Translations under genes and position numbers: made by a program
Shown: piece by piece, positions 3,944 through 32,463 of the stretch
How positions within the stretch are numbered: the first letter of the stretch is position 1
Layout: each line of letters opens with the position of its first letter
Notes under the pieces: generated by a model
The model's database searches: none
What the model was told of the DNA's origin: nothing
What the model saw: only the letters and a program-made list of their open reading frames with translations
Source: Rubellimicrobium sp.
GTDB lineage: Bacteria > Pseudomonadota > Alphaproteobacteria > Rhodobacterales > Rhodobacteraceae
Direction of reading: 5' to 3'
NCBI GenBank assembly: GCA_020832515.1
Contig: JAFIEN010000007.1
Location: 1 to 32,463, forward strand
Length of the DNA: 32,463 bases

Positions 3944-5875
3944 CTAGCGCCGCAAGGCCCCGGCGGCGCGCAGCTCCTCGGCGCGTTCGGCATTGAACCA
4001 CCAGAAATCCAGATGGCCCAGCGCATAGGGCGGCAGCGGATCGGGATGTTCGAACATGTCGAAATAGGCCACCCAGAAGTTCGGGTTGTACCAGGTCGGC
4101 ACAATGAACATCTCGCGCCGCATGATGCGGTCGATGGCGCGCACGCCGGCGGCCATTTCGTCAAAGCTGTCGGCGTCGATCACCATCTCGATGATCCGGT
4201 CGACCGCAGGGTGCGAGAAGCTGGCCGGGTTGAACAGATCGCCCAGCCCGTCGCTGCCGAAGCGCTGGCCAAGGCCGATCCCCTCCTCGAGGTTGTTGTT
4301 GTAACCGTCAAGGATCATGTCCCAGTCGAAGCTGCGCTCGCGGTTGGTGTATTGCGCGGGATCCACCCGGTTGTAGGTGGCCCGCACGCCCAGGCGCTGA
4401 AGATTGTCGATGTAGGGCAGGATGATCCGGTCGAGCGTGGGGTTGTCGGACAGGAACTCGACCGCCAGCACCTCGCCCGCCGCGTTGCGCAACAGGCCGT
4501 CGGGTCCGTTGGTCCAGCCCGCCTCTTCCATCAGGGCGACGGCCCGGCGCAGGTTCGTGCGGTCAAGCTGCTGTTCGCCTGACGTATGCGGCATGGTGAC
4601 CGGCTCGGTCAGGATCTCGGGCTCGATCAGGTCGGCGACCGATTCCAGGATTTCCAGTTCGCGCCCCTCGGGCACGCCGTGGGCGGCCAGCGCGCTGTTC
4701 TGCCAGAAGCTTTCGCGCTGTTCGAACAGGCCGAACTGCAGCGCGCGGTTGGTCCATTCGAAGTTGAACATCAGCGCCAGCGCCTCGCGGACGCGGCGGT
4801 CCTCGAACTGCGGTTGCAGCAGGTTCATGACAAAGCCGGTCGCGGGCGGAAGGTTGCCGTTGGGCAGCTCGGCCCGGACCACGTGGCCCGCGTTGAGCGC
4901 CGGAAAGTCATAGGCCGTGGCCCATTGCAGCGACGAGTTTTCCTGCCGGAAGGTGTATTCGCCAGCCTTGAACGCCTCGAACGCGGCGGTGGCATCGGCG
5001 AAATACTCGACCCGGATGACGTCGAAATTGTGCCGGCCCTGATTGATCGGCAGGTCCGCGCCCCAGTAATCGGGGTTGCGCCGGTAGGTGATCGAGCGGT
5101 TGATGTCGAAACTGTCCAGCACATAGGGTCCCGAACCGGGCGAAATCTCGAGGCGGCTTTCGTCGAGCCGGGCCCCGGTTTCCTCGTACCAGGCGCGCGA
5201 CCAGATCGGGGTGCCACCAGCCTGGTTGATGAGGTTCTTGCGCGGCACATCCTCGCCGAAGGTGAACTTGACGGTGTAGTCGTCCAGCGCCTCGACCATG
5301 GGGATCAGCGCGCCCACCGCCTGTGCATAGGAGGGCAGACCCTGTTCCAGAAGCAGCATGTGCGAAAAGACCACGTCATGTGCGGTCAGGGGCGTGCCGT
5401 CCGAAAACCGCGCCTCGGGGCGCATGTGGAAGATCACCCAGTCCTTGCTTTCGGGATATTCCAGATGTGTGCAGATCAGGCAGTAATCCGCGCTGACCTC
5501 GTCGGCGGTGCCGATCATGAGGGATTCGTAGCCGATCGTGGAGAGAGCACCTGCCCGCCCCTCGCGCGAATAGGGGTTGAAGCTGTCGAAGGTGCCCTGC
5601 GCCGAGATCGAGATCGTCCCGCCCTTGGGCGCATCAGGGTTGACATAGTCGAGATGGGGGAAATCTGCCGGGTATTTCAGTTCGCCGAAGGTGGAGTAGC
5701 CGTGGCTGGTGATCATCACCTCGTCCTGGGCCAGAGCCTGGCCTCCGAGACCCGTGCCCAGGGTGGCGATCATGGCCAGTGCCGCCAGCAGAGGCGATCG
5801 CCGACCCGCCCCGGGACGGGGAAGATGGCCTTCGACGCAGGTCGCGGCGGCTGCAGGACGGCGCGGGCTGTTCAT
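3944..5875 (-). CDS. yejA: Extracellular solute-binding protein, family 5 (YejA-like)
   Basis: Signal-peptide-like N-terminus, then HGYSTFGELKYPADFPHLDYVNPDAPKGG, typical of YejA-type SBP_bac_5 proteins. First gene of the minus-strand operon with AGGAG upstream of ATG. Confidence 0.93.
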   Translation of the reverse strand: MNSPRRPAAAATCVEGHLPRPGAGRRSPLLAALAMIATLGTGLGGQALAQDEVMITSHGYSTFGELKYPADFPHLDYVNPDAPKGGTISISAQGTFDSFNPYSREGRAGALSTIGYESLMIGTADEVSADYCLICTHLEYPESKDWVIFHMRPEARFSDGTPLTAHDVVFSHMLLLEQGLPSYAQAVGALIPMVEALDDYTVKFTFGEDVPRKNLINQAGGTPIWSRAWYEETGARLDESRLEISPGSGPYVLDSFDINRSITYRRNPDYWGADLPINQGRHNFDVIRVEYFADATAAFEAFKAGEYTFRQENSSLQWATAYDFPALNAGHVVRAELPNGNLPPATGFVMNLLQPQFEDRRVREALALMFNFEWTNRALQFGLFEQRESFWQNSALAAHGVPEGRELEILESVADLIEPEILTEPVTMPHTSGEQQLDRTNLRRAVALMEEAGWTNGPDGLLRNAAGEVLAVEFLSDNPTLDRIILPYIDNLQRLGVRATYNRVDPAQYTNRERSFDWDMILDGYNNNLEEGIGLGQRFGSDGLGDLFNPASFSHPAVDRIIEMVIDADSFDEMAAGVRAIDRIMRREMFIVPTWYNPNFWVAYFDMFEHPDPLPPYALGHLDFWWFNAERAEELRAAGALRR

Positions 5876-6115
5876 GAGGCTCTCCTGTCGGGCGGTTGTG
5901 GGGGCGGTACCTTCAAGATGTAGCTAACGGGCGCGGTGTCGAACATTCAAGTTGAGAATGTGTGAACCGGTGGGCAAGGCGCGCGTTCGGCATGCCCGAC
6001 AGGCGGGTCGCGAAGACGGGTACCCTGCCACGTGGCCATGCCGGAGTGGTCCACCCCGGATCTGGCCGCCCAGTGCCGGACGGGCCGCAGCCGCCCGGCG
6101 TGGCAGGCGCCAGTC

Positions 6116-6637
6116 CTAGTCGTCGAGGCTGTCGAGGAAGGCGATGAGGTTCGCCCGGTCCTGAATGTTGCGCATCCCGTTGTAGCCCATCGAGGTGCCG
6201 CGGGCGTAGCCGCTCGGGTTGGCGATGAAAAGGTTGAGGTTTTCCGGCGTCCAGACGTCGGCCGCGTCGGCCAGCGCGCCGGAATAGCCGAAACCCGCCA
6301 CCGATTGCACATCACGCCCGACCACACCGTGCAGATAGGGGCCGGTGCCGTTCGTGCCCGCCTCGGGCGAATGGCAGGCCTGACAGGCCCGAACGAAAAG
6401 CGTCTGCCCCGCAGCGACATCGGCCGAGGCAAGGAACTCGCTGAAATCGGGGGCATCTTCCTCGATCACTTCAGCGCCACCCTCGGCATCGGGCAAGGCG
6501 ACCACGAAAGCCTGGTGGTCGTCATGGTGCGATCCGCCGCCGTAGATCAGCTCGGCCATCCAGCCACCCAGAAGAAAGACCAAAAGCGCGCCGCAGAGGC
6601 CGCCGAGAGCCTTGGTCAGGGTCATTGTGTCGAACAT
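6116..6637 (-). CDS. Membrane-anchored c-type cytochrome (class I)
   Basis: N-terminal TM segment (ALGGLCGALLVFLLGGWMAELIYGG), CQACH heme-binding motif and distal Met ligand region GTSMGY. Start at MFDTMTLTKALGG rather than the longer ORF start. Confidence 0.88.
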   Translation of the reverse strand: MFDTMTLTKALGGLCGALLVFLLGGWMAELIYGGGSHHDDHQAFVVALPDAEGGAEVIEEDAPDFSEFLASADVAAGQTLFVRACQACHSPEAGTNGTGPYLHGVVGRDVQSVAGFGYSGALADAADVWTPENLNLFIANPSGYARGTSMGYNGMRNIQDRANLIAFLDSLDD

Positions 6638-6771
6638 GTCGCGATCCGTTCCCGCCGTTTTCGGTGCCCATCTATGCGCTTCCTGCCCCATACCGCAAGG
6701 TATAAGGGCGCGACTTATTGGCCGCTTAAGGTCATGCGGACACAGCAACCAGAGACGCGGGGGATACAGGG

Positions 6772-30548: not shown

Positions 30549-31616
30549 CTAGATGTGCTTCGACGGCTCTTTGAATACGTATTGTGAAAGTGAGGTTGCC
30601 CGCGCGACCCGGTTTGCCCTATCAGATGCGGCGCGAGCCACCGCGTTTGCATAATCAGCTACGAATCTGTCGAGATCGTGACGATCTTTAGCCTCAATTT
30701 TCAACGCGTCATCTACTGCCCTTTGGAATTCCCCGAGCTTGTTGGAGATTGCATCGCTAACATCTGCAGAAAATGGCAGCTCACGATGGCGAGCTGCAAT
30801 CTCTAGAAACAAAGTATAAAAGTCAGACTTCTTTCGCCATCTAGTGGCTTTAATGTTCGGTAGTATGATGGAAATAGTGGCAGCGGTTTTCGAAAAGACT
30901 TCAAATGCGTAATCTGCATCCTCAAATTCCTCTTCGTACAGTTGATAGAAGTGGTCAAGCTTATCCTTTTTGTTCTGCGGGCCGTGCATCCATGCAATGA
31001 GAAGTTCGCTGATAAACTCCTGATCACCCATCCTTCGCACTTCATTCGCAGTGAAAATGGCAGCTTCAGACCAATAGGGAATGTCATCGGATATGCGTTG
31101 TACCGCGCTTATGAAGCCGCCCCAATACGTCGAGTTTCTGAGCTCCTGCTCTGTAAGTGCGACAACATTCTTATTAAGGCGAGAGAAAATCCTCCTAATG
31201 CCCTCGTCATCCAGAGATTCTGGCAAAATTCGGGCGACAAATTTGTAGCCAAATATCGCTCTTCTTTCAGCTTCTGAAAGTTCGTCAAACTTTCTCCCTC
31301 TCCAGGCCTTATCGACGTCGTCTCCCTCCAACGCATATTCTCCAAGCACGAAACCCAGAACCGCTCGGACTCTCTGCTGACCATCAACCACAACGCTCTT
31401 TTCCGAGCCATCAGAGCTTGTCTTATCCTGCATATACAACTCGGGAATCGGAAAACCCCTGATTATCGTATCTATAAGGTATGATTGCTGCTTTCTCGTC
31501 CAGACCGCATTTCTCTGAAAGGGCGGCGACAATTCAAGTTCACCCGCAGATGATGATTTTTTGAACCAGCTAGTGGTTCTATGTGTGGTGTGTAGGAAGT
31601 TTTCTTCGGGGGTCAA
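30549..31616 (-). CDS. DUF262 (GmrS/ParB-like) domain protein
   Basis: LSPPFQRNAVWTRKQQSYLIDTIIRGFPIPELYMQ and VVVDGQQRVRAVLGF (DGQQR motif). No HNH/DUF1524-like motif in its 355 aa. AT-rich composition. Confidence 0.87.
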   Translation of the reverse strand: MTPEENFLHTTHRTTSWFKKSSSAGELELSPPFQRNAVWTRKQQSYLIDTIIRGFPIPELYMQDKTSSDGSEKSVVVDGQQRVRAVLGFVLGEYALEGDDVDKAWRGRKFDELSEAERRAIFGYKFVARILPESLDDEGIRRIFSRLNKNVVALTEQELRNSTYWGGFISAVQRISDDIPYWSEAAIFTANEVRRMGDQEFISELLIAWMHGPQNKKDKLDHFYQLYEEEFEDADYAFEVFSKTAATISIILPNIKATRWRKKSDFYTLFLEIAARHRELPFSADVSDAISNKLGEFQRAVDDALKIEAKDRHDLDRFVADYANAVARAASDRANRVARATSLSQYVFKEPSKHI

Positions 31617-32257
31617 AGCGGTTCTCCGTCTTCAACTGGAATTTCGTTGCCATCTTGACTATACTCAAGATCGCTCAAAATTTTCTCATTTCTGATTTTC
31701 TCAATATTTTTCGCTTGATATTGTCGAAGGGCGTCAAAGTCTTTGTATATCCTCAACTTCACATCCCGTCCCTTTGTTGGTTCCATCTCAGTCATCAAGT
31801 CCAGAGCAGCTTGCCAATTTTTCCCGAAAGGCAGTATCGAAAGCATCCTATCAGCAGCGATGGTTCCCAAGAAGACAAAGTGTTTTCTATGGTCCTTGAT
31901 AGCTTCTGACGTCTCTCTTGATATCGAGCCAAGGGAAACGCTTTCCTTGCGGAGATGCCTCCACGATATGTTAAAGTAGTGCTCGCTTACCACGCCACAG
32001 TCGATGTCGCTCTTGATATCAAACTTCTTGAAATTCTTTGTTGGGTTCAGGCTGAATCCTAGCGCTCCACTTCCTGTAAGAACGACATCTCTAGCATCTA
32101 CATCAAGCAAGTCAGAGAGCGCATGCTTCCATTCAACCCATCGCTCCGCATCGCCTCCGAAACAGAAAGGAACTGGATCGAAAAGATGGCGAGAAACAAA
32201 CGACATGGGAGGCAGCCTAATGAGTTCCGACTTTAATTCGTCAATTGTGTTCACCAT
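31613..32257 (-). CDS. Putative nucleotidyltransferase-fold protein in an operon with the DUF262 gene
   Basis: VVLTGSGALGFSLNPTKNFKKFDIKSDIDCGVVS resembles hG-S...SDID NTase motifs. Stop overlaps the DUF262 start by 4 bp. Confidence 0.6.
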   Translation of the reverse strand: MVNTIDELKSELIRLPPMSFVSRHLFDPVPFCFGGDAERWVEWKHALSDLLDVDARDVVLTGSGALGFSLNPTKNFKKFDIKSDIDCGVVSEHYFNISWRHLRKESVSLGSISRETSEAIKDHRKHFVFLGTIAADRMLSILPFGKNWQAALDLMTEMEPTKGRDVKLRIYKDFDALRQYQAKNIEKIRNEKILSDLEYSQDGNEIPVEDGEPL

Positions 32258-32412: not shown

Positions 32413-32463
32413 TTAGATTCCAGCTTCAAGTGCAACGGTTGATGTGAAGGCCGCGATTTCGTC
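32413..32463 (-). CDS. Possible 3' end of a truncated gene running off the window
   Basis: Reverse strand from the window edge reads DEIAAFTSTVALEAGI-stop (TAA at 32413-32415). Only 16 codons visible. Confidence 0.2.
   Translation of the reverse strand, partial: DEIAAFTSTVALEAGI

Follow-up and report, generated by a model that had tools for sequence, protein, structure and literature searches.

What do a minimal nucleotidyltransferase (NTase)-like gene and a gene for a stand-alone DUF262 protein do together at one end of an alphaproteobacterial contig? The stretch of DNA analysed (hereafter, the window) comprises contig C345 in full (32,463 bp), from a source genome of 461 contigs. Both genes lie on the minus strand: the first (31613–32257, ATG start) encodes the NTase-like protein of 214 aa, and the second (30549–31616, TTG start) the DUF262 (GmrSD_N) protein of 355 aa. 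Both open reading frames were confirmed as originally predicted, together with the 4-bp overlap (TTGA, 31613–31616, minus strand) that joins the NTase stop to the DUF262 start. The sequence GGAG (31624–31627, minus strand) can be read 7 nt ahead of the TTG. The next gene past DUF262 is an SDR gene on the opposite strand. Upstream of the NTase gene only 206 bp are visible before the contig end; their translation gives the possible C-terminus of a truncated upstream frame (DEIAAFTSTVALEAGI*; 32413–32463, minus strand), and no defence neighbour is visible in the window itself.

The base composition of the two genes sets them apart from their surroundings, with 45–47% GC versus 66.6% for the remaining contig, and GC3 of 0.48–0.50 versus 0.84–0.90 in two resident genes that were checked. 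The pair was not seen in the short flanks examined of seven relatives with a homologous SDR-gene region. The low GC and GC3, together with the lack of any sign of the pair in these homologous regions, suggest that the window copy was probably acquired horizontally.

A single-sequence search with the NTase returned no close relatives in plasmids, phages or genome contigs; relatives were reached with an alignment-based profile. The same taxonomic order contains two distant NTase relatives, with 25% and 34% identity in the matched part, and behind each lies a DUF262 gene with a 4-bp overlap. The profile search of genome contigs, for which the NTase alone was the query, yielded 80 loci, and in 73 of these a DUF262 gene lies directly downstream on the same strand. 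The paired loci span at least eight bacterial phyla, and one contig from the NTase search belongs to a Lokiarchaeota MAG. The spacing of the two genes is nearly always between -70 and +44 bp, and -4 overlaps recur in many relatives, most of which are only 20–30% identical to the window's proteins. Six of the seven unpaired loci belong to a subgroup of longer NTases (258–284 aa) in different contexts; in the seventh (L054) the sequence stops 221 bp past the NTase. On viral contigs, 14 of 15 loci with the NTase have the DUF262 gene as well. Pairing at this frequency far exceeds what chance would give, and adjacency of the homologues, which the original prediction had proposed as a check, clearly proved to be the rule.

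The two genes also appear to have travelled together. Pairwise distances of NTase and DUF262 proteins co-vary with r = 0.915 (best of 2,000 shuffles, 0.178), and the nearest relatives of both window proteins (40% and 43% identity) are found at one and the same locus in the actinobacterium Nocardia niwae, which speaks for transfer as a unit. By these sequence comparisons, the NTase and DUF262 genes are a real, mobile two-gene module distributed across many phyla. Disrupted or incomplete reading frames of the NTase, DUF262 protein or methyltransferase were noted in several loci (L027, L051, L056, L057 and L069), and this suggests frequent inactivation of the module.

The window DUF262 protein matches Pfam PF03235 (GmrSD_N) at 1.1e-22, and the GmrS domain was found in all 62 members. 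Its PPFQR motif (residues 31–35; 31512–31526, minus strand) and the DGQQR motif of the nucleotide pocket (residues 78–82; 31371–31385, minus strand), both recognized earlier, are intact and conserved: Q34, R35, D78, G79, Q81 and R82 are invariant in the 62 aligned sequences, and Q80 is present in 97%. An AF2 model (pLDDT 91.8) gave BrxU as top Foldseek match (E 4.4e-4, probability 1.00), with ParB, Noc and sulfiredoxin ranking next, as expected because DUF262 has a ParB/Srx-like fold. In BrxU, GmrSD and SspE, the DUF262 domains are NTP-binding and NTP-hydrolysing units that govern a nuclease (PMC10952713), and for this reason we infer by analogy that DUF262 is the sensor and switch of the present pair and the NTase, whose active site is intact, its effector.

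The pair shares with GmrSD, BrxU and SspE the DUF262 domain with DGQQR, and differs from them in having a separate NTase as partner and no DUF1524/HNH domain, fused or adjacent, in any of the 62 members. The absence of the nuclease agrees with the original prediction. DUF1524 is lacking from all 62 DUF262 proteins by Pfam, and their alignment contains no strongly conserved His column (best 69%) and no other obvious nuclease signature; with neither a DUF1524 match nor a conserved His column, a hidden HNH nuclease was discarded as unlikely. In six loci (L013, L015, L022, L025, L028 and L065) the DUF262 proteins are about 500 aa long, with roughly 150 additional, conserved residues at the C-terminus, for which the Bacteroidota sequences give no recurrent Pfam match.

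The earlier view that a stand-alone DUF262 protein without HNH is unusual did not hold. The systems PD-T4-2, Menshen and Dazbog already lack an HNH on the DUF262 protein, and PD-T4-2 pairs it with a HEPN protein (PMC10952713). Operons of MAE_28990-HEPN, ‘ParB’ and DNA methylase genes were described in 2013 by Anantharaman (PMC3710099), and by our own reading this ‘ParB’ is DUF262. These operons resemble the present loci in combining a ParB-fold gene, a toxin-like partner and a DNA methylase, and differ in that the partner is a HEPN RNase where the present pair has an NTase. In PADLOC, the best match of the window DUF262 protein is NsnA (1.9e-40), with PD-T4-2_A at 4.9e-24; both models are matched by all 62 members, NsnA down to 1.2e-42. 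PD-T4-2 is said to be an anti-T4 system, reported by Vassallo in 2022. It is likewise a module with a stand-alone DUF262 protein, but the partner here is an NTase rather than a HEPN protein, and the window protein scores lower on PD-T4-2_A than on NsnA. On the side of the partner gene, none of the 71 aligned NTases matches any PADLOC partner model beyond weak oligonucleotide-cyclase matches in at most two members (best 0.0054). The publication behind the NsnA model was not found in the literature searched.

The GS...DxD signature of the NTase, from which its nature had been predicted, is intact. In an alignment of 71 relatives, G62 and S63 of the GSG motif (residues 62–64; 32066–32074, minus strand) and D84 and D86 of the metal-binding DxD motif (within SDID, residues 83–86; DxD at 32000–32008, minus strand) are invariant, and D136 (31850–31852, minus strand), a candidate third catalytic Asp, is conserved in 92%. 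Taken alone, the window NTase stayed below the cut-off in Pfam, NCBIfam and PADLOC, and a PDB sequence search returned nothing convincing; six of the 71 aligned members match NTP_transf_2 in Pfam (best 3.5e-4). A Barstar match (0.0073), below cut-off and confined to one of the 71 members, was taken as chance. In profile-profile comparison by hhalign, MNT-type NTases were matched weakly (P 2.8e-4, probability 18%), and in this alignment the GS and DxD motifs line up. Foldseek searches of the PDB with the AF2 model (pLDDT 89.6) returned nothing significant, the sub-significant matches including several NTases (TUT4, CutA, Tam41 and HI0073). The NTase assignment is well supported by sequence and not by structure comparison, so that the predicted fold stands on motifs and profiles and lacks a significant counterpart in the PDB.

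A complete NTase motif next to a protein with a nucleotide pocket raises the question of CBASS-like signalling, in which the NTase would make a nucleotide signal and DUF262 would bind it as both receptor and effector. The weak PADLOC cyclase matches described above point the same way. However, SMODS is absent from the 71 members by Pfam, and hhalign gave no match to SMODS or AbiEii with the small reference alignments used, so that neither method detects the CD-NTase/SMODS cyclase that is found in CBASS. The NTases (about 180–300 aa) are also shorter than the SMODS proteins retrieved for comparison (290–416 aa), and the typical two-gene unit encodes no nuclease, TM, TIR or phospholipase effector. 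We regard a CBASS-like role as very improbable.

A DUF262 profile search in the class of the window organism revealed that the NTase is one partner among several. The best matches adjoin an NTase, and weaker ones have other partners: HEPN-like proteins with an R-N-x3-H motif (recognized by eye) downstream, AAA proteins downstream, or FRG-like proteins upstream. Many short DUF262 proteins thus have partners other than the HNH nuclease that had been taken as the normal one. In the tree, 74 NTase-linked DUF262 proteins form a pure clade (support 1.0), within a larger clade (0.95) of 81 NTase-linked proteins and five others, one of them beside a HEPN-like gene. Because HEPN-like, ATPase or FRG proteins are the partners of short DUF262 proteins at other loci, the NTase probably fills the same partner, or effector, slot, an argument from analogy that is imperfect in that the NTase is encoded upstream of DUF262 and HEPN partners usually downstream.

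The main rival to an NTase effector is a toxin-antitoxin-like pair, from which sequence data cannot separate it. Here, DUF262 would be the harmful component, as a ParB-fold DNase or an NTPase, and the NTase an antitoxin that silences it by NMPylation, as MntA does HepT. The gene order fits, as the NTase gene precedes and overlaps its partner in the manner of many antitoxin-toxin pairs, and the weak profile match goes to MNT-type NTases rather than to CD-NTase or AbiEii. ParB-like folds have been classed among endoDNase domains (PMC3710099), and neutralisation by adenylylation is established for HEPN-MNT pairs (PMC7641770). As in HepT-MntA (HEPN-MNT, type VII toxin-antitoxin), a small MNT-like NTase with GS...DxD is combined with one partner gene; the partner, however, is DUF262 and not HEPN, and the NTase is only weakly similar to MNTs and longer than the MNT-type proteins retrieved (72–152 aa). 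Known DUF262 domains are NTP switches that leave catalysis to a partner or to a further domain (PMC10952713), the DUF262 proteins here carry neither a conserved His nor another obvious nuclease signature, and the known alternative partners are HEPN toxins, suggesting an effector slot. We therefore consider an antitoxin NTase rather unlikely.

The neighbourhoods of the pair bear on what such an effector might serve. C5-cytosine methyltransferase is the commonest neighbour family, with 8 of 150 pair neighbours, and is not listed for 150 controls. It occurs in the flanks of 14 genomic pair loci versus 0 of 36 control stretches (Fisher P 0.004, which is indicative, the controls being Pseudomonadota only and not phylum-matched), as well as in the viral pair loci L222 and L230. 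Seven of the methyltransferase genes lie directly upstream of the NTase, on the same strand and within 14 bp (L013, L015, L022, L025, L028, L043 and L065). The next recurrent neighbour is a Vsr-type endonuclease (Pfam Vsr, 5 loci), which abuts or overlaps the NTase start in L018, L041 and L086. Type II endonucleases were found in three loci (NaeI in L018, SmaI-family in L041 and MvaI/BcnI in L043). For L013, L022, L025 and L065, the scan on the downstream side showed housekeeping genes, and the pair may for this reason stand in the place of the restriction enzyme. A general role as accessory module of type II restriction-modification (R-M) fits only in part, as most pair loci lack a methyltransferase in the surrounding 6 kb or so and the window is cut by the contig end. 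The only C5-methyltransferase of the source genome lies on another contig (C131; locus L155, 900–3358), together with a Vsr-like gene and a probable endonuclease beside a phage terminase-like gene; a link to the pair was considered and dropped for want of evidence.

A second context is a phage hotspot. In Escherichia coli strain 1500 the pair (NZ_CP040269.1, 3286–4880) is inserted in a P2-family prophage between gpA, the replication endonuclease gene, and gpQ, the portal gene, a locus known in P2-like phages as an antiviral hotspot (PMC9122126). The viral contig L229 matches this prophage at 98–99% identity in gpA, portal, terminase and capsid, and carries a pair at the same place whose DUF262 protein is only about 27% identical to that of strain 1500. 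A further P2-like case, L231, has at this place a pair 73–77% identical to that of L229 and, in the DUF262 protein, about 27% to that of strain 1500. Divergent pairs at one place in near-identical backbones indicate, from these sequences, that different versions entered the hotspot independently. Distant blastn detected the pair in 1 of 5,426 E. coli genomes, a rare occurrence, and no L229-type pair was found in the E. coli genomes searched. Given this rarity, the pair would have escaped the hotspot survey, which curated only arrangements seen at least 10 times (PMC9122126). No NTase relative was returned from phage records, enterobacterial queries included. The pair is also carried by a 6.2-kb Cronobacter plasmid and by a large Pseudoalteromonas plasmid; a weak match on an Aliarcobacter plasmid (H74) was not counted, the next gene encoding a DUF4365 protein and not DUF262.

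These contexts could in principle reflect an accessory pair for plasmid or phage maintenance, or for regulation, that rides on mobile elements. The P2 hotspot also holds partition-like and other non-defence genes (PMC9122126), and ordinary neighbours surround the pair at many loci. Linkage to C5-methyltransferase, Vsr and restriction endonucleases, the independent entry of divergent versions into a defence hotspot and the defence record of described DUF262 systems (PMC10952713) argue against such a role, which we judge quite improbable. A defence role is well supported by genomic context, namely the P2 hotspot, the R-M loci, the small plasmid and the low-GC insertion. Of the alternatives offered in the original prediction, a distinct defence or toxin-antitoxin-like pair, it is defence to which the neighbourhoods of this conserved module point. 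No description of a DUF262 and nucleotidyltransferase pair was found in the literature searched, outside of which subscription papers largely fall, and the pair is probably a previously undescribed anti-phage defence module.

We propose that the pair is a horizontally spread module against phages or other mobile genetic elements, in which DUF262 would act as an NTP-dependent switch that inspects nucleic acid for its modification state or for an infection-related structure. On detection it would release or activate the NTase. The infected cell would cease to grow once the NTase had added a nucleotide to a molecule that the cell cannot do without, the likeliest candidates being the 3' ends of RNAs, for example tRNA, or a protein. 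Most copies would work alone, and a minority would add to, or stand in for, the restriction arm of a C5-methyltransferase system, with methylation marking self DNA. To this proposal as a whole, with DUF262 gating an NTase effector, alone or as an R-M arm, we assign about an even chance. A substrate such as tRNA, by analogy with MenT toxins, is speculation. Doubtful, if a real possibility, is a methylation-gated abortive infection in which DUF262 would test DNA for the C5-methyl mark of self, or for a modification of phage DNA, and a failed test would unleash an NTase that poisons the cell by nucleotidyl transfer; R-M specificity would then drive an NTase toxin rather than a DNA-cutting nuclease.

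GmrSD, BrxU, SspE, PD-T4-2, Menshen and Dazbog make up a growing group of DUF262 defence systems. That the DUF262 switch has exchangeable partners is partly known already; the NTase partner is undescribed in the literature searched. Its occurrence across many phyla and at R-M loci would show that the switch serves generally as a sensor to which different effectors can be coupled, and these systems would gain an outcome that involves no nuclease. The copy in the E. coli P2 prophage makes direct testing possible in a laboratory strain.

Related loci of two kinds were noted alongside the pair. A short DUF262 gene followed by a HEPN-like gene was seen in L103, L104, L105, L106, L108, L110, L112 and L118. 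Among these, L108 has a C5-methyltransferase upstream and L106 a Vsr-like gene upstream, and R-M linkage may on this account be general to short DUF262 modules. The longer NTases without DUF262 (L031, L038, L044, L050, L080, NTase at about 5,860–6,700; L064, 276–1130) are situated in other defence-looking loci. In L050, the NTase gene lies between genes for a large methylase-like (DUF1156-like) protein and a DUF499-like ATPase, followed by SIR2/HerA-like genes as identified by eye.
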